Of a DNA stretch of 64,000 bases, positions 174-13,729 are shown piece after piece (position 1 is the first letter of the stretch; the number at the start of each line of letters is the position of its first letter). Source of the DNA: Spirochaetota bacterium (GTDB lineage: Bacteria > Spirochaetota > UBA12135 > COTS27 > JAFLEE01); NCBI GenBank assembly GCA_017302015.1, contig JAFLEE010000017.1:1-64000 (forward strand), written 5' to 3'. The notes under the pieces are model-generated. The model searched no databases. It was not told the origin of the DNA and saw nothing but the letters and a program-made list of their open reading frames with translations. Both the position numbers and the translations under genes were made by a program.

Positions 174-500
174 ATGAACGAAAAACAAAAAGCGCGTCTT
201 CTGGCCCGTGCGGAAATCCTCAAGGCCCTCGCCCATCCGACCCGGCTTTGCATCGTCGAGGAACTCGAAAAAGGCGAGCGGGGCGTGGGCGAACTCACCG
301 ACCTCATCGGCGATGACATGTCCACCGTGTCCAAGCATTTGACGGTGCTGAAAAACGCGGGCCTCGTCTCCGATGAGAAGCGCGGCACCGCCGTGATCTA
401 CCGCCTCCGCGTGCCCTGCGTCATGAACTTCATGGGGTGCGTCGAGGCCGTACTGACCCATCGCCTCAACGAGCAAATCGCCTTGGTGACCGGGTCTTGA
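174..500 (+). CDS. arsR: ArsR-family metalloregulator
   Basis: This is a 108-residue winged-helix repressor. The family hallmark ILKALAHPTRLCIVEEL lies at about residues 15-31, and the recognition helix around STVSKHLTVLKNAGLV. Cys26 is followed by a C-terminal PCVMNFMGC pair (Cys82, Cys89), a pattern common in arsenite- or metal-sensing ArsR proteins. It is the first gene of a plus-strand operon continuing into a permease 18 bases downstream. The promoter carries its own palindromic operator over the -10 box. There is no Shine-Dalgarno sequence and almost no 5' leader. The DNA-binding family is clear; arsenite as inducer is inferred from the arsM/acr3/arsC genes nearby. Confidence 0.9.
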   Translation: MNEKQKARLLARAEILKALAHPTRLCIVEELEKGERGVGELTDLIGDDMSTVSKHLTVLKNAGLVSDEKRGTAVIYRLRVPCVMNFMGCVEAVLTHRLNEQIALVTGS

Positions 501-518
501 TTTTTTTTGGAGTTGAAC

Positions 519-1568
519 TTGGCAAAAATACCAAATACGAAAACGTTGCTCGGGTCGAAGCTGGGTCCGAGCGTGGCGGTGGTCGCTTCCTTCGGTGTCT
601 GGGGCGTGGTTTATTATTTCCTCGAACCGTTGTCACGTTGGGCCACCGGGAGTATCCCCGGGCTTGGGGAGTGGCCGCGCCTGCGGAATGCGGCGGCCTT
701 CTTCATCTATGAGGCGCCCAAGGTCTTGATGCTCCTCGTGCTGATCGTCTTTGTCGTCGGGGTCGTGCGCAGTTTTTTTTCCCCGCAACGCACACGGCGT
801 CTTCTTTCCGGGAAGAAGGAGGCCACCGGGAACGCGCTGGCTTCGCTCCTGGGCGTGGTCACCCCGTTCTGTTCCTGCTCCGCCGTGCCCCTTTTCATCG
901 GGTTCCTCACGGCGGGGGTGCCCCTGGGGGTGACGTTTTCGTTCCTGATCGCCGCGCCCATGGTGAACGAGGTCGCCCTGGTGCTTCTCTTCGGGCTCTT
1001 CGGGTGGAAGGTCGCCGCGCTCTATCTGGGCACGGGCCTGGGGATCGCCATGCTCGCCGGCTTCGTCTTGGGAAAACTCGGATTGGAGAGGCAGGTGGAG
1101 GACTGGGTTTGGAAGATCCGGGCCCAAGAGGGAAGCGCGGATGAGATCCTCCCTTGGAATGGTCGCCTTCGCGCGGGCGTGGCGGCCGTGGGTGAGATCA
1201 CGGGGAAGGTTTGGCCCTGGGTGCTCCTCGGGATCGCAGTGGGCGCGTTCATCCACGGCTATGTCCCCGAAAATTTCCTGGCAAGTCTCATGGGTAAATC
1301 GGCCTGGTATTCGGTGCCCGTGGCCGTGCTCCTTGGCATCCCCATGTATTCCAACGCGGCCGGCATCATCCCGGTGGTGCATGCGCTCATCGAAAAGGGC
1401 GCGTCCTTGGGGACCGTCTTGGCTTTCATGATGTCGGTGATCGCGCTATCGCTTCCCGAACTGATCCTCTTGCGCAAGGTGCTGAAGCCGAAACTGATCG
1501 GATTCTTTGTCGGGGTGGTGGCCACGGGGATCCTCCTCATCGGATATCTTTTCAATCTAGTTTTATAG
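519..1568 (+). CDS. ArsP/DUF318-type permease
   Basis: This is a roughly 349-residue integral membrane protein with about eight to ten hydrophobic segments. It carries the family signature TPFCSCSAVPLFIGF followed by a conserved APMVNEVAL stretch, typical of the DUF318/UPF0718 permeases that include the methylarsenite exporter ArsP. The start is taken as TTG at 519 because GGAG at 509-512 is correctly spaced for it. In-frame TTG codons at 507 and 513 are too close to that site. It follows arsR directly and precedes a small CxxC thioredoxin, a gene order often seen for this permease. Export of an organoarsenical or another soft-metal/thiol compound is likely, but the substrate cannot be read from sequence. 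Confidence 0.8.
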   Translation: MAKIPNTKTLLGSKLGPSVAVVASFGVWGVVYYFLEPLSRWATGSIPGLGEWPRLRNAAAFFIYEAPKVLMLLVLIVFVVGVVRSFFSPQRTRRLLSGKKEATGNALASLLGVVTPFCSCSAVPLFIGFLTAGVPLGVTFSFLIAAPMVNEVALVLLFGLFGWKVAALYLGTGLGIAMLAGFVLGKLGLERQVEDWVWKIRAQEGSADEILPWNGRLRAGVAAVGEITGKVWPWVLLGIAVGAFIHGYVPENFLASLMGKSAWYSVPVAVLLGIPMYSNAAGIIPVVHALIEKGASLGTVLAFMMSVIALSLPELILLRKVLKPKLIGFFVGVVATGILLIGYLFNLVL

Positions 1569-1641
1569 GGGTGCTTTCGGGGATGGACGAACATCAAATC
1601 AGCATCGATTCCCCCATCGGGAAGATGCCAGGAGACAGTCG

Positions 1642-1875
1642 ATGAAAAAACTGCAGGTGCTCGGCAGCGGTTGCGCCAAATGCAAAACCCTCGCCGATTT
1701 GACGGCGAAGGCCGCGGTGGATTTGGGGTTGGCCTACGAAATCCAAAAGGTGACCGACCTGATTGAAATCAGCCAATTCGGGGTGATGGCCACGCCGGCC
1801 CTCGCCGTGGACGGGGAAGTCAAGGTGGTGGGACGGGTTCCCACCCTCGAAGAAATCAAGAAGATGATCTCGTAA
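1642..1875 (+). CDS. small redox-active thioredoxin-fold protein
   Basis: This 77-residue protein has the active site GSGCAKCKTL at about residues 8-17 and the cis-proline region MATPALAVDG. It matches the short glutaredoxin-like proteins of the TM0996/MTH895 family (redox-active disulfide protein 2). It has no signal peptide, so it should act in the cytoplasm, probably passing electrons to or from thiol sites of neighbouring proteins. It sits in the arsR-led operon, 73 bases after the permease gene. These proteins are often encoded next to DUF318 permeases. The natural partner is unknown. Confidence 0.85.
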   Translation: MKKLQVLGSGCAKCKTLADLTAKAAVDLGLAYEIQKVTDLIEISQFGVMATPALAVDGEVKVVGRVPTLEEIKKMIS

Positions 1876-1955
1876 CCAAACGCGTTTTCCATTTTATTTG
1901 CAGGGCGTTCCGCGGGGCTCCGGCCCAAATCCACGCGTGACGCCAGGAGGATCCG

Positions 1956-2345
1956 ATGACGACAGAGTCCAAAGCGTGCGGCTGCGCGGCCGCCCCGAAA
2001 CTGGTGTTTCCATGCTCCGGCGCCGCGGATGTGGGGGAGATCGCCGACCGGGCCGGGCGAAAACTCACCCGGGAGGGACACGGAAAGATGTTCTGCCTCG
2101 CCGGCGTCGGCGGGGCCATCCCCAATATTCTCACTTCGACCCGGGCGGCAGACACGATCCTCGCCATCGACGGGTGCCCCACCAATTGCGTGAAGGCGAC
2201 CCTCGAGAAGGCCGGGATCACCCATTTCCAGCATCTCCAATTGGCCGACCTCGATCTGCCTAAGGGCAAAAGTCCGGCGACCGAAGAGGCCATCGGGAAA
2301 GTCGCCGCCGCCGGAGCCGCGCTTCTTTCCAAGCCCTGCTGCTAG
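1956..2345 (+). CDS. DGC-domain putative metal-binding protein
   Basis: The protein has 129 residues with many cysteines: an N-terminal CGC, a PCSGAADVG motif, MFCLAGVGG, the diagnostic DGCPTNC segment and a terminal CC. This pattern fits the DGC-domain family (putative zinc-binding protein), often encoded near ars, thioredoxin and CcdA genes. The ribosome site AGGAGG lies before the ATG at 1956. The biochemical role of the family is not established; a metal- or thiol-carrier role is inferred from cysteine content and neighbours. Its stop is six bases before the next start, so the two are co-translated. Confidence 0.75.
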   Translation: MTTESKACGCAAAPKLVFPCSGAADVGEIADRAGRKLTREGHGKMFCLAGVGGAIPNILTSTRAADTILAIDGCPTNCVKATLEKAGITHFQHLQLADLDLPKGKSPATEEAIGKVAAAGAALLSKPCC

Positions 2346-2351
2346 AGGCCC

Positions 2352-3092
2352 ATGGAGTCCATCATCCAAGACCTCTTCCTTTATGCCGACCGGTCGGTGA
2401 GGGGCGCTCCGGGCGCCGCGCTCTTTGCCTCATTCCTCTGGGGGATCTTCAGCATTCTTCTGAGCCCCTGCCATCTTTCGAGCGTGCCCTTGGTGGTGGC
2501 CGTGGTCAGCGGTCGGCGGGATTTGCCCCTGGGGAAGGCCTTGGCGCTGGCCTCGGTCTTCGCCCTCGGGATCCTCGTCACCCTGGGTTTGGTGAGCGTC
2601 TTGGCGTTCGCCGCGGGGTTCGCCGCCCTCCAGGCGATGGGTCCTTGGGGCACCATGGCCATCGGCCTCCTCTTCCTGCTCGCCGCCCTGACGATGTGGG
2701 GGGTGCCGCTATTACCGTTCTTGGACCGATTCGCGGGGATGGCTTCCCCGGGAATAGGCCGCCGTGGCATGGCCGGGGTCTTCTTCCTCGGACTCGTGTT
2801 CGGCCTATCGCTGGGGCCCTGTACGATGGGCTTCATGATGCCGGTGCTCGGCGCAGCGGGGGCACTGGCCCCGACGCGGCCGGGGTTCGCGGGCGGGATG
2901 CTCGCTCTCTTCGCCCTCGGGCATTGCGGTTTCATCGCCGCGGCGGGAGGATCCTTCCACCTGGTGTCGAGGCTCCTTCGATGGAATGAGTCGACCCGTG
3001 CCATGGACCGGATCAAAAGGATCTTGGCGATCCTACTCGCCGCCATTGGTTTCGCCCTGCTCTATGGGGGGATCCGCGATTTGGGTCGGTAG
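2352..3092 (+). CDS. CcdA/DsbD-type thiol transporter
   Basis: This 246-residue polytopic membrane protein carries the paired cysteine motifs of the CcdA/DsbD transmembrane family: LLSPCHLSSVPLVV near residue 38 and LSLGPCTMGFMMPVL near residue 158. About six hydrophobic helices are visible. Family members take electrons from cytoplasmic thioredoxin and hand them to extracytoplasmic thiol proteins. The next gene encodes a thioredoxin lipoprotein with a CxxC site, the natural acceptor. A second CcdA/thioredoxin-lipoprotein pair lies on the other strand at 8.9-9.9 kb. Confidence 0.85.
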   Translation: MESIIQDLFLYADRSVRGAPGAALFASFLWGIFSILLSPCHLSSVPLVVAVVSGRRDLPLGKALALASVFALGILVTLGLVSVLAFAAGFAALQAMGPWGTMAIGLLFLLAALTMWGVPLLPFLDRFAGMASPGIGRRGMAGVFFLGLVFGLSLGPCTMGFMMPVLGAAGALAPTRPGFAGGMLALFALGHCGFIAAAGGSFHLVSRLLRWNESTRAMDRIKRILAILLAAIGFALLYGGIRDLGR

Positions 3093-3182
3093 AATCCCTG
3101 AGCAACGGATAACGAACCTTTCGTGCGGTGGCCAAAAACGCTGCCTAATCCCTTTCGCATCCAAAACCAATAGGAGTCCCCC

Positions 3183-3569
3183 ATGAGTCGAACGTTCCTT
3201 TTCCAGATTCTCTTCCTCTCGATGGTCCTCTCGTGCAGCGCTGAAACCCCGAAGGCCCCTCCCGCCTCCACGGGGAAGCCCACGGAAAAAGAAAGGGTGA
3301 CCTTCGTGGAATTGGGTTCGGTGAATTGCATGCCCTGCCGCATGATGCAGCCCGTGATGAAGGCCGTGGCGGAGCAGTACGCGGGCAAGGTCAAGGTAGT
3401 CTTCCACGACGTATGGACGGACGCCGGCCGGCCCTTCGGGAAGACCTACGCCATCCGCGCGATCCCGACCCAGGTCTTTTTGGATGCGGAAGGGAAGGAA
3501 TTCTTTCGGCACGAGGGTTTCTTCCCCAAAGAGGAGATCGACAAGGTCCTGGCGCCGAAACTGAAATGA
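3183..3569 (+). CDS. thioredoxin-like lipoprotein (CxxC)
   Basis: This 128-residue protein starts with a lipoprotein signal ending in LSMVLSC, so it should be anchored outside the cytoplasmic membrane. The thioredoxin fold has the dithiol site VNCMPCRMM at about residues 49-57 and the cis-proline segment AIRAIPTQVFLD. TAGGAG before the ATG at 3183 supports the start. It follows the CcdA-like gene by 90 bases and is probably its periplasmic redox partner. In this cluster it may keep arsenic- or metal-handling thiols reduced, which is inference. Confidence 0.85.
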   Translation: MSRTFLFQILFLSMVLSCSAETPKAPPASTGKPTEKERVTFVELGSVNCMPCRMMQPVMKAVAEQYAGKVKVVFHDVWTDAGRPFGKTYAIRAIPTQVFLDAEGKEFFRHEGFFPKEEIDKVLAPKLK

Positions 3570-3626
3570 ACGCCGCCGCCGATTCCGCATGGCGGCCGAG
3601 GGACGGATCGCGGGCGCGCGGTTCGT

Positions 3627-3661
3627 TTGACGGATCGCGATCTAAATCGTATATTTACGAT
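3627..3661 (+). promoter_or_regulatory. second arsR promoter and operator
   Basis: TTGACG at 3627-3632 and TATATT at 3650-3655 are separated by 17 bases. A perfect inverted repeat ATCGTA (3646-3651) and TACGAT (3656-3661) overlaps the -10 box. The expected transcription start (about 3662) practically coincides with the ATG at 3664, so this message is also leaderless. The arm sequence differs from the first arsR operator, so the two repressors should not cross-bind. Confidence 0.85.
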
Positions 3662-3663
3662 CA

Positions 3664-4056
3664 ATGAAACCGACGGTAAATACGAGGGCGCGTTGGGCGC
3701 CTTCCCTCGCGAGACGGGCGCAGGTCCTCAAGGCCCTCGCCCATCCCGCCCGCCTCTCCATCCTCGAGCGTTTGGCCAAGAGCCGATCGTGCTGCTGCGG
3801 TGACCTGGTGGCGGGGCTCCCCTTGGCGCAGGCCACGGTGTCCCAGCATTTGGCAGCGCTCAAGCGGGCCGGGCTCATCCAGGGGACGATCGCCGGTCCT
3901 TCGGTGTGCTATTGCATCCGGGCGGAGGCCTTCCGCCGGGCCCTCAAGGATCTCGAGGAGTACTTCGCCCTCCTCGGGGGGAAAGCAACCGCCATTGAGG
4001 CGGCTTGCTGCCCCCCCCATCCCACCCGCCGATCTTCCAAAGGAAAACGCCCATGA
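3664..4056 (+). CDS. arsR: ArsR-family regulator of arsM-acr3-arsC
   Basis: The 130-residue winged-helix protein has VLKALAHPARLSILERL at residues 21-37 and the recognition helix AQATVSQHLAALKRAGLI. It is rich in cysteine: a CCC run at 43-45, Cys82 and Cys84 (VCYC), and a C-terminal CC at 115-116. Arsenite coordination by such pairs is plausible and differs from the first ArsR. The gene overlaps arsM by four bases (ATGA), so the two are translationally coupled. It carries its own palindromic operator and an apparently leaderless start. Control of the arsM-acr3-arsC operon follows from position. Confidence 0.9.
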   Translation: MKPTVNTRARWAPSLARRAQVLKALAHPARLSILERLAKSRSCCCGDLVAGLPLAQATVSQHLAALKRAGLIQGTIAGPSVCYCIRAEAFRRALKDLEEYFALLGGKATAIEAACCPPHPTRRSSKGKRP

Positions 4057-4868
4057 ATGAACCGAACCCCGAAACCATCCGCGGAAAAGTCCAGGAAGTC
4101 TGCGCCAAGGCGGCTGGCGGGGGCCAAGGATCGTCTTGCTGCGGTTCGACCTCGTGTTGCGGGTCCAACGGGAGCGAGGCGGATGCCATCGCCCAGCGCC
4201 TCGGGTACCCGCAAGCCGAATTGGCGGCCCTTCCGCAAGGGGCCAACTTGGGTTTGGGATGCGGGAACCCGCTGGCCATCGCCTCGCTGAAGCCGGGGGA
4301 AACGGTGCTCGACCTCGGCAGCGGCGCCGGCATCGATTGCTTCCTCGCCGCGGCGCGCGTGGGGCCCTCGGGGAAGGTCATCGGGGTGGATATGACCCCC
4401 GCGATGATCGCGAAAGCGCGGGCCAACGCGGAAAAAACGGGCGCGGCGGGGGTCGAGTTCCGCTTGGGCGAGATCGAACGCCTTCCCGTCGCCGACGATT
4501 CGATCGATGTCGTCATCTCCAATTGCGTCGTGAATCTGAGCCCCGAGAAGCCCCGCGTCATCGCGGATCTCTTCCGCGTGCTGAAACCGGGCGGACGAAT
4601 CGCCCTCAGCGACGTCGTCGCGCTTCGCCCCGAGCCGGCGGACCTTCGCGCCGACCTCGAACTCCACGCGGCGTGCGTCTCGGGCGCCATGGAAATCGGG
4701 GCCTGGACGCGCCTATTGGGCGAGCGCGGGTTCCTGGAGGTCGCCGTGCGCGTACAGGAAGGTTCCCGCGAAATGATCGACGGCTGGGCGGACGGCCGCG
4801 ATCTTGGCGGGCATTTCGCCTCCGCAAGCATCGAGGCGGTGAAGCCGGAGGGGGCGACGCGTGGGTGA
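4053..4868 (+). CDS. arsM: arsenite S-adenosylmethionine methyltransferase
   Basis: This is a 271-residue class I methyltransferase. The SAM site is [16 protein letters not shown] with the acidic loop [10 protein letters not shown]. ArsM-type cysteines are visible in [11 protein letters not shown] before the SAM domain and in [14 protein letters not shown]. An N-terminal Cys-rich tract ([10 protein letters not shown]) precedes them. The start at 4053 has an AAAGGA site and overlaps the arsR stop. ArsM converts As(III) to methylated, partly volatile arsenicals in the cytoplasm. It stands between an arsenite-type repressor and an Acr3 pump, which agrees with this role. Its stop overlaps the acr3 start region by eight bases. 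Confidence 0.93.
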
Positions 4869-5919
4869 GACGGTCGCCCCCATGCACCTGTCCTTCCTCG
4901 ACCGGTTCCTCACCCTCTGGATCTTCCTGGCCCTGGGCCTCGGGTTGGCACTCGGCCACTATGTTCCATCTTTCGGCCGGTGGATCCACGCGATGTCGAT
5001 GGGCACGACTTCGATCCCCATCGCCATCGGGCTCATCCTCATGATGTATCCGCCCCTGGCGAAGGTGCGCTATGAAGAGTTGCCGCGGGTGTTCCGTAAC
5101 GGGAAGGTCCTCGCCCTTTCCCTCGCCATGAATTGGATCATCGGCCCCCTGCTCATGTTCGCCCTCGCGATCCTCTTCTTGAGGGACCGCCCCGAGTTCA
5201 TGCAGGGGCTCATCCTCGTGGGCCTCGCCCGTTGCATCGCCATGGTCATCGTGTGGAACGATCTGGCCAAGGGCGACCCCGAATATGGCGCGGGCTTGGT
5301 GGCCCTCAATGCGGTGTTCCAGGTGCTCTTTTTCGCGGTTTACGCCTGGTTCTTTCTGCTGATCGCGCCTCCCTGGTTCGGCGTCGCCGGGGTCGCGGTC
5401 GACATCACCCTGGGGAAGATCGCCTTTTCAGTCTTCCTCTATCTCGGCATCCCTTTTTTGGCGGGCATGCTCACCCGCTTCGCCCTCGTCAGGGCAAGGG
5501 GAAAAGAGTGGTACCAGACCCGTTTCGTTCCGAAAATAAGCCCCCTGACCCTCGTCGCCCTGCTGTTCACCATCGTGGTACTCTTTTCCATCCAGGGGGA
5601 GCAGATCCTCTCCCGCCCTTGGGATGTGCTGCGAATCGCCTTCCCCCTGCTCCTCTATTTCGCCATCATGTTCCTCATCTCGTTCTATTTGTCCAAACGG
5701 GCCGGGGCGAATTACGCGGTGAGCGCGAGCCTCTCCTTCACGGGCGCCGGCAATAATTTCGAATTGGCGATCGCCGTCGCCCTGGCGACGTTCGGCCTCG
5801 GCCATGGCGCCGCCTTCGCGGCGGTCATCGGGCCCCTCGTGGAGGTGCCGGCCCTGATCGCCCTAGTCGGCGTGGCCCTTCGATTGAAAAAACGGTGGTG
5901 GCCGGAGCCCGCCGCCTGA
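4861..5919 (+). CDS. acr3: Acr3-type arsenite efflux permease
   Basis: This 352-residue membrane protein has about ten helices and the Acr3 signatures [18 protein letters not shown] and [16 protein letters not shown]; the latter holds the conserved cysteine needed for As(III) transport. The GTG at 4861 lets it overlap the arsM stop; ATG at 4882 (MHLSFLDRF) is an alternative start. Acr3 pumps arsenite out using the proton-motive force. It is followed by arsC, giving the classic reduce-and-export pair. Confidence 0.93.
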
Positions 5920-5969
5920 GGTGGCCGCGGCCTCGGTTCGGGGGGCGAATGCATGGGAGAATTTACACC

Positions 5970-6443
5970 ATGACGAAATCCAAGATCCTCTTCCTCTGCA
6001 CCGGGAATTCCTGCCGCAGCCAGATGGCCGAGGCTTGGTGCCGCGCGCTACGGTCCGACCGCTTCGACGCCTTCAGCGCGGGCACCTCCGCCAAGGGCCT
6101 CAACCCGCACGCGGTGCGGGTGATGGGCGAATCGGGTGTCGATATCACGGGCCAGCGGTCCAAGACGGTCCACGAACTCCTCACCGAGGGCCTCGTCTTC
6201 GATCTGGTGGTCACGGTCTGCGCCAACGCCGACGCCCATTGCCCCAATTTTCCCGGCGGGAGGACGCGGGTGGTGCATGTCGGCTTCGATGATCCCCCGG
6301 AATTGGCGCGGGATGCGGCCACGGAGGAGGAGGCACTCGGGCATTACCGTCGCGTGCGTGACGAGATCAGGGCCTTTGTCGAAGGCTTGCCGAAATCCCT
6401 GGGACGGCACGGAACACGTTCGGTATCCGCGGAGTCTCGATAG
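5970..6443 (+). CDS. arsC: arsenate reductase, LMW-phosphatase type
   Basis: This 157-residue protein opens with the P-loop FLCTGNSCRSQMAEAW (Cys10, Cys15, Arg16). A redox pair follows at Cys84 and Cys91 in TVCANADAHCPNFP. This is the arrangement of thioredoxin-coupled ArsC: Cys10 attacks arsenate and the disulfide passes through the later cysteines to thioredoxin. GGGAGA before the ATG at 5970 supports this start rather than upstream in-frame codons. It completes the arsR-arsM-acr3-arsC operon. Its 3' end abuts the broken end of an antisense pseudogene. Confidence 0.95.
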   Translation: MTKSKILFLCTGNSCRSQMAEAWCRALRSDRFDAFSAGTSAKGLNPHAVRVMGESGVDITGQRSKTVHELLTEGLVFDLVVTVCANADAHCPNFPGGRTRVVHVGFDDPPELARDAATEEEALGHYRRVRDEIRAFVEGLPKSLGRHGTRSVSAESR

Positions 6444-6444
6444 G

Positions 6445-6879
6445 AGCGGTTCCAATCGTTATGGCGAGGCCCACGGGGTCCGAGCCGAGGATGAGTAACG
6501 CGGTTTCAGTGGTGCGGTGGGGAGTGCGTCCGCGGATGGCCGCGGACGTCTCGGCCGGGAGCATGGCGTCGAGTTGCCGCACGAGATCCTTTCGCTTGAT
6601 GGCGCCGGAGTAGGTCGCGACGGGTTTGCCGTTTTCATAGAAGAGAACGGTGGGGGAAGACGTCATGCCAATGGATCTGGCGAGGTCCCGGTTTTCCTAC
6701 CGGAAGACTTTTAGGAAAGGGATCTCGCGGCCGTAGAGTTCGGACAGCGGCTCGAATTTCCCCGCCAAGGCCTCGCGCGGCGGGAATTCCGTGGAATAGA
6801 AATCCACGATGGCCCGCGGGGCGTAGAGGACCTTCATCTACCAATTGCCCGCGCCGATTTCACGGTTCCATTCACCCAT
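6445..6879 (-). pseudogene. remnant of thioredoxin-thioredoxin reductase fusion
   Basis: Reading the minus strand from the ATG at 6879, which overlaps the radical SAM stop, gives a decayed copy of the fusion encoded intact at 12434-13729. Matching segments include IVDFYSTEFPPREALA against VVDFYSDECPPCEALA, SSPTVLFYENGKP, and the Rossmann start LLILGSDPVGLA. In-frame TAG codons occur at 6838-6840 and 6697-6699. Both cysteines of the CxxC site are replaced (Phe and Arg), and nearly all of the reductase domain is missing beyond about 6448, where homology stops next to the arsC end. It was the last gene of the minus-strand arsR operon. A downstream ATG could still give a short thioredoxin-fold fragment, but without catalytic cysteines. 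Confidence 0.85.
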
Positions 6880-8233
6880 GGGCCGCCTCCTCGCGAAAAT
6901 AGAGCCCGGCGCCCAGCGACAAAAGTCTCGGAACCGGCCGACAATCGGGCGCCAGGAACTTGCCATGGCGGTTTTTCGCCACGGAGGCGCAGCCGCCCCC
7001 GCATGCCAGACGCGAGGCGCACGCCCCGCATTCCCGGATGGAAGTGATGTCGCGGGAGACCCACTGGGAGACGAGGGTTTGGTCTAGGTTGACGAACGGA
7101 TGGTAGGTGCCCAGGATCTCATCGCGCTTCCCCACGGTCGCCGTGCACGCGAAGATCCGCCCCATCGAGTCGAAGGCCCATTCCGATTTGGCGCCGGGGC
7201 AGGCGTCGAAGAGGGGGTCGGGCAATTTCCCCTCCTGTTTGAGGAACTTCACCACGGAGAACGCCGGGCGGTGGAACTCGAGGATCTCGGGGTGCTCCCG
7301 GGCCATGCGGTAGATCGCTTCGTAGAGGGCCGCGCGTTCGAACAGGTCGGAGGGCGCGGCCTGGCAATGGTGGAGTTCGTAATTGCGCCCCAATTGGGTC
7401 TTGAAGCGGGGGTGGCCGGTCCAGCCCCGTTCCTTGGCCAGGCGGGCCAATCCCACGAGTTCGCCGAGGTTCGTCTTGTCGACGACCATGCGCAGGTTGA
7501 TGGGGTGGTCGTCGGCCAACGCCGAATCAATGCCTTGGACGATGGCCGAGAAGGTCGGCCCTTTCCCCTTCAAATGGCGGCGGGAATCGTGGACCGCCTC
7601 CGTCCCGTCGAGGGTGACTTGGATCTCCCGGATGTTCCCCTTCCGCAGGATATCGCGGTACTCGGCCAAATGGAAGCCATTGGTGACGATCGCGACCGGT
7701 AGACCGCGGCGCTCGGCCTGTTCCAGGAAGCGCTCGATATAGGCCCGGTGCGCCGCGCCCGGCAGCAGCGGTTCGCCGCCGAAAAGGGTGAGGTACTTGG
7801 GCCGCCCGGCGAAGGTTTCAACGACATAGTCGAAGAAGGCGTCCATGCGCGCCGCCGAGAGGTCGGGGGTCGCCGGATCGTACTCGTCCTGGAAGCAATA
7901 GGAGCAGGAGAAATTGCAGGCATACCAGGGGACGAAGAAGATCTGGATCTCTTCCTTCTCGCGCGCATCGAGAAAATCGAGGTAGCGCGCGCGGAAGAAC
8001 GCCTCTTCTTCCGCGGGATCGACCCAATAGCCCCGCTCCTGGAACTCGGGATCCTCGGGCGCCGTCCCCGCGAGGAGGGGCGCGGCCTTTTCGGGGGTCA
8101 AAAGATCGGCCTCCCCGCGCAGGAGGTTCACCAGGAGGAAACGATCGCTATCCTCGATCTTCGAGAGGAGGTTGTGCTTCGACCAATGGCGTTCCATCCG
8201 AGTTCCCCTTCCGCGCACCTGGGCCGCGTTCAT
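6872..8233 (-). CDS. radical SAM/SPASM-type maturase
   Basis: This 453-residue protein has the radical SAM cluster motif ACNFSCSYCF (Cys106, 110, 113), LFGGEPLLPG and a SPASM-like C-terminal cysteine set (CPGAKSEW, FACTATVG, CGACASRLACGGGC, APDC) that should hold auxiliary Fe-S clusters. The N-terminal 100 residues resemble the leader regions of peptide-modifying SPASM enzymes. It overlaps the preceding methyltransferase by four bases (ATGA). ATG at 8197 is an alternative start. The substrate is unknown. Candidates are an arsenical, given the cluster, or the nearby Cys-rich peptide at 10401. It is not a typical ArsS or ArsL on the motifs visible. Confidence 0.8.
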   Translation of the reverse strand: MNAAQVRGRGTRMERHWSKHNLLSKIEDSDRFLLVNLLRGEADLLTPEKAAPLLAGTAPEDPEFQERGYWVDPAEEEAFFRARYLDFLDAREKEEIQIFFVPWYACNFSCSYCFQDEYDPATPDLSAARMDAFFDYVVETFAGRPKYLTLFGGEPLLPGAAHRAYIERFLEQAERRGLPVAIVTNGFHLAEYRDILRKGNIREIQVTLDGTEAVHDSRRHLKGKGPTFSAIVQGIDSALADDHPINLRMVVDKTNLGELVGLARLAKERGWTGHPRFKTQLGRNYELHHCQAAPSDLFERAALYEAIYRMAREHPEILEFHRPAFSVVKFLKQEGKLPDPLFDACPGAKSEWAFDSMGRIFACTATVGKRDEILGTYHPFVNLDQTLVSQWVSRDITSIRECGACASRLACGGGCASVAKNRHGKFLAPDCRPVPRLLSLGAGLYFREEAAHG

Positions 8234-8883
8234 CCCTTGCAGCAGCAGGCCTTCTTCGGCTTCTCGCCCTGGATCGTGAAACTGCAGACCTTGATCTTCC
8301 CCTTCTCATAGGGCGCGCTCTCCTCGAGGATTCGCACGTTCTGGAATCCGCACGCCGCGAGCGTCTCGAGGTAGGCCTGGCGGGTGACCGCGCCGGCCCA
8401 GCATTCCGCCACCGCCGCCGGATCGTTCGCGTACTCGGGCGCCACGGGTCCCGTGGCGTAGATGTCGCTGACGACGAAGCGCCCCCCGTCGACCATCACG
8501 CGGTGGATCTCCGACCAGACCGCCATTTTGTCGCCGGCATGGTTAAGCGTGCAATTGGAGATGACCAGGTTCACGTGGTGGTGGGGGAGGGGGATGCGCT
8601 CCAGCGGGGATTCCAGGAACTTCACGTGGGTGACCCCAAGCCTTTGGGCGGTCTCCCGGGCCTTCTGGAGCATGCCCGGGGCCACATCTTGGCCGTAGGC
8701 GAAGCCCGTCTTCCCCACCGCTTCCGCCATGCGCAGCACGTCGGTGCCGCGGCCGCTGCCGAGGTCGAGGCAGATCTCGCCGGGTTGGGGCTTGGCGTAA
8801 TCAATAGCGCCCCCGCAGGAGAGGCAGCAGGAGGATTCGGCCAGCGCGCTATAGCGGGTCTCGATGGGTTTCGTGTCGATCAT
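8230..8883 (-). CDS. ArsM-like SAM methyltransferase
   Basis: This 217-residue class I methyltransferase has the SAM motif CLDLGSGRGTDVLRMA and the ArsM-like segment LVISNCTLNHAG. Cysteine clusters stand at the N-terminus (SSCCLSCGGAIDY) and the C-terminus (KKACCCKG). It lacks the GCGNP cysteine seen in the canonical arsM of this window, so it is a divergent paralogue. AGGAG before the ATG at 8883 fixes the start. It is translationally coupled to the radical SAM gene downstream. A two-step modification by this pair is likely; whether the substrate is arsenic, a peptide or another thiol compound is not shown. Confidence 0.75.
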   Translation of the reverse strand: MIDTKPIETRYSALAESSCCLSCGGAIDYAKPQPGEICLDLGSGRGTDVLRMAEAVGKTGFAYGQDVAPGMLQKARETAQRLGVTHVKFLESPLERIPLPHHHVNLVISNCTLNHAGDKMAVWSEIHRVMVDGGRFVVSDIYATGPVAPEYANDPAAVAECWAGAVTRQAYLETLAACGFQNVRILEESAPYEKGKIKVCSFTIQGEKPKKACCCKG

Positions 8884-8909
8884 GGGGTTCTCCTGCATTG
8901 GATCGCGGA

Positions 8910-9560
8910 TTAGAGCGTGAAAGAACTGAAGGAAATCATCCCCTTGAAGACGATGAAGGCCCCGAGGGCGACGAGAAGAAGGCCGCTGGCCACCTGGATG
9001 GCCATGGGATGCCGTGAGAGGATGCCGAGTCGGCCGCGGAAAAACTGGGAAGCGTATCCCGCGATGAGCAGGGGGATGGCGAATCCCGCGGAATAGACGA
9101 GGAGGTAGAGGAGACCGTTCCCCACCGTGCCTTTCGAGGCGACCAGGGTCAGCACGCTCCCGAGGATGGGCCCGACGCAGGGGATCCAGATGAGGCCGAG
9201 CAAAAGGCCCAATAGGAGGCCGTTCATCCTTCCCCCCGAACGACCCGACAGCCTTGAAAAGAACCCCATCGATTTGAAAGGATTGACCCCGAACGCGAGG
9301 AGGATGCCCAGGACCATGATGAGGCCTCCGGCGATCTTCTCGATCTGGTACATCCTGGACCCGATGACCGAGCCGAAAAGCGAGGAGAGGACGCCCATGG
9401 CCATGAACGTCAGCGCTAAGCCCGCGACCACGAGCAGCGGGCGCATCTTGTGGTCGTCTTTCCCCCCGGCCACCACGATGGGGATCACCGGGAGGACGCA
9501 GGGGGAGAGGACGCTGAGGAACCCCGCGCCGAAGACCAGGGCCGCGTTCATGGATTCCAT
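8910..9560 (-). CDS. ccdA: CcdA-type cytochrome c biogenesis/thiol transporter
   Basis: This 216-residue membrane protein has about six helices and the two CcdA cysteine motifs, SVLSPCVLPVIPIVV near residue 20 and LIWIPCVGPILGSVL near residue 125. The length is typical of CcdA proper. The start at 9560 lies five bases after the stop of the thioredoxin lipoprotein gene, with AGGA in the overlap region. It should carry reducing equivalents across the membrane to that lipoprotein. It is the second CcdA-like gene in the arsenic island, so thiol traffic to the cell envelope is a repeated theme here. Confidence 0.88.
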   Translation of the reverse strand: MESMNAALVFGAGFLSVLSPCVLPVIPIVVAGGKDDHKMRPLLVVAGLALTFMAMGVLSSLFGSVIGSRMYQIEKIAGGLIMVLGILLAFGVNPFKSMGFFSRLSGRSGGRMNGLLLGLLLGLIWIPCVGPILGSVLTLVASKGTVGNGLLYLLVYSAGFAIPLLIAGYASQFFRGRLGILSRHPMAIQVASGLLLVALGAFIVFKGMISFSSFTL

Positions 9561-9565
9561 GGGGC

Positions 9566-9955
9566 CTATTTCCTCAATTGGGCCAGGATCGCCTCGCCAT
9601 CCTGGACGCCGGGGAAGAAGCGGTGGAGTTCGCGGCCGTCTTTGTCGGCGATGATGAGCATGGGAAGCCCGCGGATGCCCCATTGCTCGAATTGGGCCAG
9701 ATCTTCGGGCACCAGGGTGCTCACGATTTTCACCTGGGCGAGGCCCTTGAGGGGCTCTTGGATGCCGTCGAGGATGGCTTGCTGGTTCTGGCAGGGGCGG
9801 CCGTTGGGGTTTTTGAAAAAGAACAGGGTTTTTAGCCCGGTCGGCGCCGCTTTCGCCGTTTGGGCGGCGGGGGGCTTGGCGGCGGTTTCCGCGCTGCAGG
9901 CGGTGACGAGTCCGAGGGCGCAGGCAAGGAGGACGGCGGAGAGGCTGGATTTCAT
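9566..9955 (-). CDS. thioredoxin-like lipoprotein with single active cysteine
   Basis: This 129-residue protein has a lipoprotein signal ending in LGLVTAC and a thioredoxin-like fold (cis-proline segment IRGLPMLIIAD). The active-site region reads KNPNGRPCQNQ: the first cysteine of the usual CxxC is glycine, so only the second remains, and the lipobox cysteine is the only other one. That makes it monothiol. AGGAG precedes the ATG. It lies between arsR and ccdA and is expected to be periplasmic. It may act by mixed disulfides or bind a metal; its chemistry is open. Confidence 0.8.
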   Translation of the reverse strand: MKSSLSAVLLACALGLVTACSAETAAKPPAAQTAKAAPTGLKTLFFFKNPNGRPCQNQQAILDGIQEPLKGLAQVKIVSTLVPEDLAQFEQWGIRGLPMLIIADKDGRELHRFFPGVQDGEAILAQLRK

Positions 9956-9964
9956 GGGAGGCTC

Positions 9965-9980
9965 CTATATTTGTATATTC
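9965..9980 (-). promoter_or_regulatory. probable second operator for the third ArsR
   Basis: CTATATTTGTATATTC matches the palindromic site at 10292-10307 in 12 of 16 positions, with an identical right half (GTATATTC). It lies just upstream of the thioredoxin lipoprotein start on the minus strand. It suggests that the third ArsR also represses the genes directly downstream from an internal promoter. Confidence 0.5.
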
Positions 9981-10010
9981 GACTATCGATATATAGATGG
10001 GCCAAAAAAA

Positions 10011-10277
10011 TCAGGCCCCGAGCGCCCGCATAACCTTGCGGGCTTCGTCGCTGCACACCGAATACACCATTTGATTCCCCTCGCGCCGTGCGCAGAGGAC
10101 CCCGGCGGCCTTGAGGATGGACAGGTGCTGGGAGACCGTCGGCTGGGGCACCCCGGTGCAGTCGACCATGGTGGCCACGTTCTGCTGGCCTTTCAGTAGG
10201 CCGTCGACGATGCAGAAGCGCACCGGGTGGCCGAGGGCTTTGAGGAGGGAAGATTTGGCCACGTGATCTTTCTTCAT
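10011..10277 (-). CDS. arsR: ArsR-family regulator of the minus-strand arm
   Basis: This compact 88-residue winged-helix repressor has SLLKALGHPVRFCIVDGLL and the recognition helix PQPTVSQHLSILKAAGVL. Cysteines at 22, 40, 62 and 75 are candidates for metalloid binding. The start is set at ATG 10277; longer upstream reading would run through the promoter. It heads a minus-strand unit of thioredoxin lipoprotein, ccdA, methyltransferase, radical SAM and the decayed fusion gene. A strong promoter with an overlapping palindrome precedes it, and there is no Shine-Dalgarno sequence in the short leader. The inducer is inferred to be an arsenical. Confidence 0.9.
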   Translation of the reverse strand: MKKDHVAKSSLLKALGHPVRFCIVDGLLKGQQNVATMVDCTGVPQPTVSQHLSILKAAGVLCARREGNQMVYSVCSDEARKVMRALGA

Positions 10278-10291
10278 GGTTCGCGTTCGAT

Positions 10292-10327
10292 GAATATAAG
10301 TATATTCGAATAGAAATATATTGTCAA
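10292..10327 (-). promoter_or_regulatory. third arsR promoter and operator
   Basis: On the minus strand, TTGACA (10322-10327) and TATACT (10299-10304) are separated by 17 bases, close to consensus. The perfect inverted repeat GAATATA-AG-TATATTC (10292-10307) covers the -10 box. The arm sequence is unlike those of the other arsR genes here. Confidence 0.85.
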
Positions 10328-10352: not shown

Positions 10353-10381
10353 TTGGCGCCCGACTGGCCGGGATCTATACT
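10353..10381 (+). promoter_or_regulatory. promoter of the Cys-rich peptide gene
   Basis: TTGGCG at 10353-10358 and TATACT at 10376-10381, 17 bases apart, fit a plus-strand sigma-70 promoter diverging from the third arsR. It ends just before the strong AAGGAGG ribosome site at 10390-10396. Confidence 0.6.
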
Positions 10382-10400
10382 TCATCCCAAAGGAGGCCCC

Positions 10401-10502
10401 ATGCGATCACTCGTCAAGAAGAGCGCGAAGAAGACTTCGTGCTGCGGCGAAGCCCAATGCTGCGCCAAGATCTCGTCCACCGCCGACGGCTGCCACGACT
10501 AG
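10401..10502 (+). CDS. 33-residue cysteine-rich peptide
   Basis: A short frame from ATG 10401 to TAG 10500 encodes 33 residues: a basic N-terminus (RSLVKKSAKK) and a Cys-rich C-terminus (TSCCGEAQCCAK, then DGCHD) with five cysteines. A near-perfect AAAGGAGG site seven bases upstream and a plausible promoter argue that it is translated. The CCG motif recalls the N-terminal tract of the arsM product. It diverges from the third arsR and lies near a radical SAM/SPASM plus methyltransferase pair. It could be a metalloid-binding peptide or the precursor of a modified peptide. No function is assigned. Confidence 0.65.
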   Translation: MRSLVKKSAKKTSCCGEAQCCAKISSTADGCHD

Positions 10503-10528: not shown

Positions 10529-10579
10529 AAGGCTATCGCCCGTTGCGCCCCGAGGGCGGGACACAACGGGCGATGCCTT
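10529..10579. repeat. long stem-loop at convergent gene ends
   Basis: An inverted repeat has 11 perfectly paired bases (ATCGCCCGTTG and CAACGGGCGAT), then after one bulged base five more (AAGGC and GCCTT). The 18-base loop can itself pair. It covers the stop codon of the minus-strand NifX-like gene and follows the peptide gene by 26 bases. There is no U tract, so it may be a bidirectional transcript-end structure or a dispersed palindromic element. Confidence 0.6.
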
Positions 10580-10943
10580 GGCAGGAGGCGGGATGCGCCC
10601 CCGGGGATCCGCCCCCGAAATGCGCCGCCTCCACGTTGTGATACCGCCGGATGGCCTCGCCCACGGTCGTCGCGTCTACCTGGAATGCCTTGATGCCGGC
10701 GTCCTCGAGGCGTCTCAAGGCTAGGTCGGCCAATTTCCGACAAACCACCGCATCGCATCCGCACGCTTTGAGGGCCTCGACGGGTTGGCAGCTTCCTTGC
10801 GGGTGTCGGATGTCCACGTTTTCCAAGAAACCCAACTGAAGGCTCTCGTTGTCATAGACCGCGAAATACCTGGCGGTGCCGAGGAATGGATCCAAGCGAG
10901 AAACAAGCCCTTCCCGATTCTGGGTGGGAATACAAATTTTCAT
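10533..10943 (-). CDS. NifX/NifB-type cofactor-binding domain protein
   Basis: This roughly 136-residue protein begins MKICIPTQNREGLVSRLDPFLG and contains the dinitrogenase iron-molybdenum cofactor-like fold (FAVYDNES, CGCDAVVCRKLADLALRRLEDAGIKAF in parts). Single-domain members occur in many anaerobes that lack nitrogenase and are thought to bind Fe-S or Fe-Mo-type clusters. The ATG at 10943 follows a GGGGGA site and overlaps the DUF134 stop by four bases. The last residues are encoded in a strong stem-loop. No nif or mrp genes lie in the window, so the partner is unknown. Confidence 0.75.
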   Translation of the reverse strand: MKICIPTQNREGLVSRLDPFLGTARYFAVYDNESLQLGFLENVDIRHPQGSCQPVEALKACGCDAVVCRKLADLALRRLEDAGIKAFQVDATTVGEAIRRYHNVEAAHFGGGSPGAHPASCQGIARCVPPSGRNGR

Positions 10944-11452
10944 GTTTTTCCCCCGCGGCAAGCGCCGCCGACTCGACCCCGTTTAGGCTCCCGACAACAA
11001 GCCTGCTTGGGGCCCGGACCGCGGTCCCCGGGCGATGGGGCGTTTTGGCTCGTTTGGCGCCGGAACGCGGTCGAGCGGCAGGAGGGGCAATTCCGCGGTC
11101 GACCGGTGCCAAAGGGCTCTTTCCATACATGTCCACAATCCAGGCACCTGAACTCTCGGATATCCTGGGTGACCGGGCCGCCTTCGATGAGCAGGTGCTT
11201 GCCGTGGATCAGGAAGTCGGCGACCTTCAGATGGGCGGCGCAGATGATGTTCCCGAACGTCTGGCGGGAAACGCCCATGCGCGCGGCGGCGTCTTCCTGG
11301 TAGAGGCCTTCCAAATCGGCGAGTCGAATGGCCTCGAATTCATCGAGGCTCAGGGTGATTTCCTCGAGTTCGGTGGAGGGGATGCCACGGGGTTTGAAAC
11401 TAGTGGCCAGGGGGTCGCCCCCGACGCGGCGCATTTTGCAGGGTCGGCTCAT
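10940..11452 (-). CDS. DUF134 HTH protein with zinc-ribbon extension
   Basis: This 170-residue protein starts with the DUF134/UPF0251 pattern MSRPCKMRRV and a sigma-70 region-4-like helix-turn-helix (LSLDEFEAIRLADLEGLY, EDAAARMGVSRQTFGNII). After the HTH it carries a zinc-ribbon-like tail with CLDCGH and CPSC, then a Cys-containing basic tail. It is probably a DNA-binding regulator, possibly metal- or redox-responsive. It lies between two NifX-like genes in one minus-strand operon and overlaps the downstream one by four bases, an arrangement typical for DUF134 genes in anaerobes. Confidence 0.78.
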   Translation of the reverse strand: MSRPCKMRRVGGDPLATSFKPRGIPSTELEEITLSLDEFEAIRLADLEGLYQEDAAARMGVSRQTFGNIICAAHLKVADFLIHGKHLLIEGGPVTQDIREFRCLDCGHVWKEPFGTGRPRNCPSCRSTAFRRQTSQNAPSPGDRGPGPKQACCREPKRGRVGGACRGGKT

Positions 11453-11461
11453 CGGGGGAGT

Positions 11462-11851
11462 TCACCCATGGGCGTGTGCGCCCCCTGCGCAGGTATCTTC
11501 GAGGGAAAACGCGGGGAGTTTTCCCCGAAAATAATCGAGGACGGCCTCTCCGACCAAGGCGGCTTCCCCGCCGTTGAATACCCGGATGCCGGCGTCGATG
11601 AATCCCGTAAGCGGACGTCGACCGATGCCGCCTGCGATGAGGATTTGGACTCCCTGATCGGCCAAGAGTTTGACGGACGCGAGGCAACCGCCCTGCTCGT
11701 GGGGCGGATTCACCAGGGTTTGCACCGAGACGATATTCCCGTCGGTGGATTGGACGATCGTGTAGAGTTCGCAGTGGCCGAAGTGGCGGCCGAGTTCTGA
11801 GTCCAGTCCTCCGGGGTGGCGGGAGGGGACGGCGATACGGATCGTTTCCAT
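11462..11851 (-). CDS. NifX/NifB-type cofactor-binding domain protein
   Basis: This 129-residue paralogue of the product at 10533-10943 begins METIRIAVPSRHPGGLDSEL and has GRHFGHCELYTIV, GGCLASVKLLADQGV and AGGIGRRPLTGF, which fit the NifX/NifB-like domain. A Cys/His-rich end (DTCAGGAHAHG) could bind metal. GAGGAG seven bases before the ATG at 11851 sets the start. It is the first gene of the NifX-DUF134-NifX unit and is preceded by a recognisable promoter. Confidence 0.78.
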   Translation of the reverse strand: METIRIAVPSRHPGGLDSELGRHFGHCELYTIVQSTDGNIVSVQTLVNPPHEQGGCLASVKLLADQGVQILIAGGIGRRPLTGFIDAGIRVFNGGEAALVGEAVLDYFRGKLPAFSLEDTCAGGAHAHG

Positions 11852-11896
11852 CGAAAACTCCTCGGGCAAGGCCCGTGTTTGTTATTGGCATATGCT

Positions 11897-12433: not shown

Positions 12434-13729
12434 TTGGACGAGAATCACGCCTATCTCGAGATCGAAAGCGACGCTTGGGAGAAGGAAGTTCTACACTCCG
12501 ATCTCCCCGTGGTCGTGGATTTTTACTCGGATGAATGTCCCCCGTGCGAGGCCCTAGCCCCGAAATATGCCTCGTTGGCGGATCAGTGGCACCGCGACGT
12601 GAAGTTCGTGAAGGTGTTCCGCCAAAAGAACCGGGCTTTGGCCGAGAGCCTCGGCGTGCGCGGTTCGCCCACCGTGCTCTTTTTCCACGGGGGGCAAGAA
12701 CGCGGTGCGCGCCTGACGGGAGGCATCCGCCGCGCCGACCTCGTGCACCAATTCGAATCCTTCGTCGGCCCCGAGCGCGCCCAAGAGATCCGTGACGGGG
12801 TCCGACCGATCCACTCGAGTTGCGACGTGTTGATTCTGGGGGCCGGGCCGGCGGGATTGACGGCCGGGATGTACACCGCGCAAGCGAAGTTGAAGACCGT
12901 CATCGTCGACGGGGCCCTGGCCGGCGGGAACGTCGCGATCACCCACCAGGTCGCCAATTATCCCGGGTTTTCCAAGCCGGTGCCCGGCTGGCAATTGGCC
13001 GACCACATGGCCAGCCACGCCAAGGGCGCCGGGGCGGTCCTGCGGGAGGCGGTGGACGTGACCTCCTTCGATCCCGAAGCGAAAGCCGTGGTGATCGACG
13101 GATACGAAACGATCCAGGCGCGCTACGTCATCCTGGCGACGGGGAACTCGCCGCGTCCCTTGGGCATCCCGGGGGAGAAAACGCTCAAGGGCAAGGGCGT
13201 TTCCTATTGCGCGACCTGCGACGGGAAGTACTTCGAGGGCAAGGAGATCGTGGTCATCGGTGGCGGGAACTCGGCGCTGGAGGAATCGCTCTTCCTCGCC
13301 ACCTTCGTCAAGAAACTCACCCTGGTGCACCGGCGCGACGCCTTCCGGGCCGACCCGGGGATCCAGGAGAAGGTCGTGAAGGTGCCGGTCATCGAGCCCC
13401 TGATGAGCCACCAACCCGCCGCCTTCCGGCGCCTGGAGGATGGGCGCATGCAGGTCGATCTCATCGGCGTCGGAACGGGCGCGCCGCGCTCGCTGGTCAC
13501 CGATGGCATCTTCGTCTTCGCGGGGATGGTGACGAACCCCCCCCCCGGCACCGAGCGCCTCGCCCGGGACGAATCGGGCGCGGTGATCGGGGACGAGGAG
13601 ATGCGCACGAACCTCCCCGGGATTTTCGTGGCCGGGGACGTGCGCGCCAAGCGCTATCGCCAGATCACCACCGCCGTCAGCGACGGCACCGCGGCGGCCA
13701 TGGCGGTGACCAAGGCCCATTACGGGTGA
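12434..13729 (+). CDS. thioredoxin-thioredoxin reductase fusion
   Basis: The 431-residue protein joins a thioredoxin domain (residues 1-115, active site DECPPCEAL with Cys35/Cys38) to a TrxB-type flavoprotein. The latter has the FAD site ILGAGPAGLTAG at about 134, the redox motif YCATCDGKYF with Cys259/Cys262, the nucleotide loop VIGGGNSALEE, and VHRRDAFRA, which favours NADPH. The TTG start at 12434 follows GGGAG. It should be a self-contained cytoplasmic thiol reductase able to feed ArsC, the small thioredoxin and the CcdA proteins nearby. An inactivated copy lies at 6445-6879. Confidence 0.92.
   Translation: MDENHAYLEIESDAWEKEVLHSDLPVVVDFYSDECPPCEALAPKYASLADQWHRDVKFVKVFRQKNRALAESLGVRGSPTVLFFHGGQERGARLTGGIRRADLVHQFESFVGPERAQEIRDGVRPIHSSCDVLILGAGPAGLTAGMYTAQAKLKTVIVDGALAGGNVAITHQVANYPGFSKPVPGWQLADHMASHAKGAGAVLREAVDVTSFDPEAKAVVIDGYETIQARYVILATGNSPRPLGIPGEKTLKGKGVSYCATCDGKYFEGKEIVVIGGGNSALEESLFLATFVKKLTLVHRRDAFRADPGIQEKVVKVPVIEPLMSHQPAAFRRLEDGRMQVDLIGVGTGAPRSLVTDGIFVFAGMVTNPPPGTERLARDESGAVIGDEEMRTNLPGIFVAGDVRAKRYRQITTAVSDGTAAAMAVTKAHYG

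Follow-up and report, generated by a model that had tools for sequence, protein, structure and literature searches.

The closest described relatives of the radical SAM protein considered here are the maturases of the CteB/SCIFF and ranthipeptide systems (PapB, CefB, TIGR04463), which share with it a radical SAM core, SPASM cysteines, a small Cys-rich precursor encoded beside the maturase, and, as predicted from its modelled topology, an RRE-like N-terminus. A second line of precedent joins radical SAM enzymes to ArsM-type methyltransferases. In the arsinothricin cluster ArsQML, ArsL, proposed to have a single cluster, transfers a group derived from SAM onto free As(III) (PMC8552651), and the arsenosugar pair ArsM/ArsS, to the extent that it is mentioned in the same paper, likewise combines ArsM with a radical SAM enzyme. 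None of these ArsM plus radical SAM precedents (ArsL, ArsS) includes a peptide or a SPASM maturase. In the arsenic methyltransferase CmArsM, arsenite is bound by C72, C174, and C224 (PMC3877260).

The locus described here lies in a 64,000-nucleotide stretch of contig JAFLEE010000017.1 from a Spirochaetota bacterium, hereafter the window (Table 1), and encodes a precursor peptide, a radical SAM/SPASM maturase, a short ArsM-like methyltransferase, and a thioredoxin-thioredoxin reductase fusion (Trx-TrxR) that together very likely make up a new RiPP-type cassette, as judged from sequence comparison. It differs from the CteB-like systems in the sequence of the peptide core and in its methyltransferase and Trx-TrxR partners. 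It differs from ArsQML, which has no precursor peptide, in having a peptide substrate gene and a radical SAM enzyme of the SPASM peptide-maturase type, and from the arsenosugar pair, described without a peptide, in a methyltransferase that scores far under the corresponding family cut-off.

Table 1. Coordinates of the cassette and neighbouring features in the window.
Feature	Position	Strand	Basis or remarks
Arsenic-type island: ArsR, ArsP_1 permease, small thioredoxin, DGC-domain protein, CcdA-like, thioredoxin, second ArsR, ArsM, Acr3, ArsC	174-6443	+	
Decayed thioredoxin module directly 3' of the radical SAM gene	6370-6879	-	FPPR in place of CPPC; frame broken by two stops
Radical SAM/SPASM peptide maturase, RRE-like N-terminus	6872-8197	-	Pfam Radical_SAM; CteB (5WGG) by profile and fold; AF2 pLDDT 90.9
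Short ArsM-like methyltransferase	8230-8898	-	Three ArsM arsenite-site cysteines (C28, C116, C166)
CcdA/DsbD-type membrane electron carrier	8910-9563	-	PF02683
Probably exported thioredoxin-like protein with NPNGRPC; weak resemblance to TsoC	9566-9955	-	Sub-threshold matches only
Putative ArsR operator (copy 2) in the arsR-thioredoxin gene interval	9973-9996		Shared palindrome
ArsR/SmtB regulator heading the minus-strand operon	10011-10277	-	NF033788, 71.5 bits (cut-off 55)
Putative ArsR operator (copy 1) in the arsR-peptide gene interval	10300-10323		Shared palindrome
Upstream signals of the peptide gene: putative promoter TTGGCG-17-TATACT, ribosome site AAGGAGG	10353-10396	+	
Precursor peptide gene, 33 aa	10401-10502	+	ORF with ribosome site and promoter; C-terminus conserved family-wide
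Conserved C-terminal core AQCCAKISSTADGCHD	10452-10499	+	63 distinct cores with AQCC.K......GCH[DN], exact C-terminus
Hairpin 3' of the peptide stop codon, where a convergent NifX-like ORF ends	10535-10574		Inverted repeat, 18-nt arms, 89% complementary
Trx (CPPC)-TrxR fusion, fourth cassette member	12434-13729	+	Pfam Thioredoxin and Pyr_redox_2; same gene in cassettes elsewhere

The 33-residue product of the peptide gene, MRSLVKKSAKKTSCCGEAQCCAKISSTADGCHD, belongs to a group of peptides with three to five cysteines, one His, and a Lys-rich start. Its ribosome site (10390-10396) lies 4 nt upstream of the ATG and is preceded by a sigma-70-like promoter (10353-10381) that matches the consensus at 9 of 12 positions; a stronger promoter facing the opposite way, toward arsR, matches at 11 of 12 (TTGACA-17-TATACT). 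Two promoters were thus found in this intergenic region against 0.2 expected, and an Rfam search of the region returned no match. The hairpin beyond the stop codon is possibly a terminator, though a clear T-run is absent. The earlier note on this DNA, which had reported a Cys-rich 33-residue ORF divergent from arsR with its own promoter and ribosome site, described the gene accurately. It was also right that the minus-strand operon leaving the same intergenic region encodes a radical SAM protein and a methyltransferase; ArsR and the thioredoxin-like and CcdA/DsbD-like proteins are encoded there as well. The Trx-TrxR fusion, the fourth partner, was absent from that account.

Conservation and linkage mark this ORF as a real gene of a conserved family. 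Two separate searches of 100 relatives, one using the radical SAM protein as query and the other the peptide, led to the same places, with the peptide homologues on the same strand as, and directly upstream of, the radical SAM homologues. The peptide accompanied the radical SAM gene in 16 of 17 genomes that had one, the gene in the seventeenth being cut at a contig end; all 16 motif-positive genomes contained the radical SAM gene, and the motif was found in none of the 83 radical SAM-negative genomes. Alignment of 16 peptides, that of the window included, shows that all have A-Q-C-C-x-K and end in G-C-H-D. When 393 genomes of the window's phylum were searched at the DNA level for C-C-x-K-x6-G-C-H-[D/N]-stop, the pattern matched exactly once in each of 37, the reversed pattern used as a control matched nowhere in the same 393, and chance matches were expected at about 4e-5 per genome by our own estimate. 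Where motif loci outside the window were read, the methyltransferase gene was adjacent in 29 of 29 and the radical SAM gene in 28, the single exception being cut by a contig end.

The same association holds on a wider scale. An alignment of the radical SAM protein scanned against 84,980 species genomes yielded 80 loci, 58 of them, all from metagenome bins, with radical SAM identity of at least 34%. A peptide core is present in 50 of these 58, and one further core, at L080, is truncated by the contig start. Five of the remaining seven loci start inside or at the radical SAM gene, and two (L108 and L114) have the radical SAM gene and no recognisable core. The other 22 loci (L128-L149), at 30% identity or less, have no peptide, methyltransferase, or Trx-TrxR. 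Across 63 distinct versions, the C-terminal 16 residues, AQCC[A/S/T]K-x-[S/T]-x4-GCHD, are nearly invariant: with fixed spacing, A, Q, C, C, K, G, C, and H are invariant and D occurs in 62. A family member from Bacteroidia reads MKSLVKKQEAQKSVVIAQCCAKTSKSVVGCHD. The main proposal of the earlier note, which groups the peptide with the radical SAM protein and the methyltransferase, thus withstands the refutation that the note itself set: beside related radical SAM genes the peptide is conserved in some 80 other genome bins. NCBIfam offered no family at E 0.1 for four of the peptides, and Pfam gave only a sub-threshold BTK match for five. No description of the peptide family or the cassette was found in searches with the motif, with ArsM plus peptide maturase, and with the neighbour domains, a result that is not proof of novelty because the literature covered, 5.4 million papers, was open-licence only.

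Clustering of neighbouring genes points to three families that occur in most loci, the radical SAM protein (62 loci), the Trx-TrxR fusion (58), and the methyltransferase (52), with the next family at 11. The usual order is methyltransferase, peptide, radical SAM, Trx-TrxR, and in some loci Trx-TrxR comes first; CPPC is present in 39 of 42 thioredoxin domains checked. The cassette is distributed over at least five phyla, with bins assigned to Bacteroidota, Spirochaetota, Ignavibacteriota, Myxococcota, and Bacillota, and the titles of the 58 loci read Bacteroidota, Spirochaetota, Ignavibacteria, Myxococcota, 'Deltaproteobacteria', and Bacillota. A cut Marinamargulisbacteria locus, L123, shows radical SAM and Trx-TrxR genes only. 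The radical SAM tree requires 10 changes of phylum label against a minimum of 5, which hints at transfer but falls short of proof. A plasmid search with the radical SAM protein gave only distant relatives, below 60% identity. Secondary neighbours in the 58 loci are DUF1847 (12), DUF6132 (10), DUF302 (8), and DUF5714 (6), and neither a peptidase nor an ABC exporter is conserved among the recurring neighbours. The DUF1847 gene adjoins the cassette in, for example, L075, L092, L097, L098, L103, and L106. In two Bacillota bins the maturase and DUF5714 form one protein: a fusion detected by Pfam at L115 (3670-5823), and a 726-aa radical SAM frame at L120 (7992-10172) that contains DUF5714 by tblastn position. 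Together with its separate occurrence in four other loci, fusion of DUF5714 to the maturase suggests a role in the same pathway.

The maturase is most similar to CteB (5WGG) among PDB entries by both sequence profile and fold (TM 0.65-0.67 for the latter), followed by anSME and SuiB, the CteB and SuiB matches being full-length. Its CxxxCxxC cysteines (C106, C110, and C113) are invariant in the alignment of homologues, as are the SPASM-type cysteines C345, C363, C402, C405, C411, C415, and C431. The AF2 model places three strands and then helices at the N-terminus (beta3-alpha3), a topology consistent with an RRE. The earlier description of a SPASM-type enzyme with a peptide-maturase-like N-terminus agrees with the profile and fold matches, and the N-terminus is a putative RRE by its modelled topology. 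Scores against the NCBIfam equivalogs (CteB, PapB, CefB, TIGR04463) all fall far below their cut-offs, at best 112.7 of 600 bits for the window's protein and 144 of 600 for a homologue. A longer protein starting at 8233 is possible; the ATG at 8197 is likelier, since that is where the alignment with homologues begins and GGAAGGGG lies ahead of it. The locus has a ribosomal peptide gene conserved beside a peptide-modifying enzyme, and the two very probably form a precursor-maturase cassette.

Its methyltransferase partner shares with ArsM and AS3MT the fold and the three arsenite-site cysteines, and differs in being shorter (about 200-222 aa), with neither the N-terminal Cys stretch nor the C-terminal domain. 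In an alignment of 27 sequences (26 cassette methyltransferases and the window's own ArsM), every one, distant methyltransferases included, has C28, C116, and C166, which align with C72, C174, and C224 of CmArsM. A fold search gave ArsM or AS3MT structures for all 13 best matches, to be set against the fact that ArsM-like folds also include enzymes without a known substrate, which counts against an arsenic reading. The protein scores 170.4 bits against the ArsM family NF008823, under the cut-off of 263 (homologues, 184 and 220). Identity with the arsinothricin or arsenosugar enzymes was rejected, as the methyltransferase falls below the cut-offs of NF040538 (86 of 500 bits) and NF038099 (52 of 400) and the radical SAM protein is of the SPASM/CteB type. 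The end of the gene (8230-8260, minus strand) encodes a Cys-rich tail, KKACCCKG; similar short tails occur in some homologues and are absent in many.

In the window, the cassette is, as read from its gene order, rearranged, with Trx-TrxR on the other strand and the cassette behind the ArsR gene and joined to the arsenic island. The decayed module matches 41 of 41 cassette Trx-TrxR proteins (tblastn, best E about 5e-42), and this similarity identifies it as what is left of the Trx-TrxR gene that the cassette first had. Its position 3' of the radical SAM gene implies that the ancestor here probably had the common gene order. The interval from the peptide gene to Trx-TrxR (10533-11869, minus strand) encodes a DUF134 protein along with two NifX-type, dinitrogenase-cofactor-like proteins; in 4 of the 58 other loci DUF134 likewise lies close to the cassette. 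The AT-rich, near-identical palindromes flanking arsR are the only two copies in the genome and are probable ArsR operators. The window's ArsR, CcdA-like, and NPNGRPC thioredoxin-like genes weakly resemble Tso-type thiol/selenoprotein loci, and differ in that their NCBIfam scores are far under cut-off and they stand outside the conserved cassette; a Tso-type identity (TsoB/TsoC/TsoR) for the system was dropped on both grounds.

Evidence on the substrate of the methyltransferase is divided. In the window, ArsR, ArsP_1, ArsM, Acr3, and ArsC are all encoded within about 10 kb of the cassette, and at L082 an ArsR-Trx-CcdA-ArsP_1 run lies beside it. Against this, 57 of 58 other named loci have no ArsR, ArsP, Acr3, or ArsC gene within about 8 kb. 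Acr3 is present in 24 of 37 cassette genomes (13 lack it) against 103 of 356 others (65% versus 29%, raw p=2e-5), an enrichment that disappears upon stratification by family (CMH p=0.36); lineage explains it, and Acr3 co-occurrence was set aside as support for an arsenic link. When the invariant arsenite site, the ArsR gene and arsenic island, and L082 are weighed against the sparsity of ars neighbours and the stratified test, arsenic is the leading but unproven substrate. That As(III) or a comparable species is the substrate of the methyltransferase is moderately probable, and the chance that the peptide is a ligand or carrier for that substrate may be put at about even. The 'metalloid-binding' label given to the peptide in the earlier note has only indirect support: the arsenite-site cysteines and the arsenic genes of the window speak for it, and the rarity of ars genes elsewhere and the loss of the Acr3 link within families speak against.

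In the proposed mechanism, the RRE/SPASM maturase would, by analogy with its family, bind the basic leader of the peptide and modify the core, most likely through Cys-thioether chemistry as in CteB-like enzymes. ArsM enzymes need thiol reductants such as Trx-TrxR. The cassette's Trx-TrxR would hold the thiols of both peptide and methyltransferase in the reduced state. At its Cys/Cys/Cys-His site the peptide would then carry, or present to the methyltransferase, trivalent arsenic or a soft, thiophilic species like it; the three-thiolate site of the enzyme would handle this species while the peptide cysteines exchange it. The product probably stays inside the cell, because no peptidase or exporter is conserved, and it is plausible that it is an intracellular thiol peptide whose partner is an ArsM-type enzyme, the two acting together on trivalent arsenic or a related substrate. 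The model as a whole, a RiPP-type cassette with an intracellular peptide carrying As(III) or a like species to the methyltransferase, could as readily prove wrong as right.

The strongest competitor, a possible though less probable reading, retains the RiPP and omits arsenic: a thioether-type cross-linked peptide would be methylated on, for example, Cys or the conserved His and serve as an intracellular redox cofactor or carrier maintained by Trx-TrxR. In general plan only, the short C-terminal core is similar to redox-cofactor precursors such as PqqA and MftA, and the cassette is self-contained, mostly remote from ars genes, and has Trx-TrxR as a fixed partner. This reading leaves the invariance of the three arsenite-site cysteines, even in distant methyltransferases, unexplained, and gives no account of the window's arsenic island or the ArsR/ArsP run at L082. 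A more elaborate arsenic scheme, in which the peptide cysteines bind arsenic, the ArsM-type enzyme methylates it there, and the radical SAM enzyme covalently fixes the arsenic or the surrounding thiols to give an encoded arsenic peptide or cofactor, is doubtful.

An unmodified thiol peptide, a metallothionein- or ArsD-like buffer merely co-regulated with the neighbouring enzymes, could draw on the three to five cysteines, His, and Lys-rich start for a plausible soft-metal site. This simple buffer, the alternative raised in the earlier note, is unlikely because of the tight linkage to the maturase: the radical SAM gene is nearly always adjacent, the spacing of the core is invariant and its C-terminal end exact, and radical SAM homologues outside the cassette are without the peptide. 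More unlikely still is a secreted, modified peptide with an antimicrobial or signalling function. The fold match of the maturase recalls the many CteB-like systems that make ranthipeptides or sactipeptides, but no peptidase or ABC exporter is conserved among the recurring neighbours, and the core is nearly invariant over phyla, unlike most bacteriocins. A chance ORF without function, conceivable only in that short ORFs are common and many appear in the window's ORF list, is refuted by conservation and linkage.

On the preferred reading, an encoded thiol peptide is processed by its maturase and has an ArsM-type enzyme and its own thioredoxin reductase to serve it, and the RiPPs would gain a class that spans several phyla, mostly in uncultured bacteria. 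If the arsenic step is true, it would link ribosomal peptides to arsenic biochemistry and provide a defined route to peptide-bound arsenic; if it is false, the invariant ArsM-type site still points to another thiophilic substrate.
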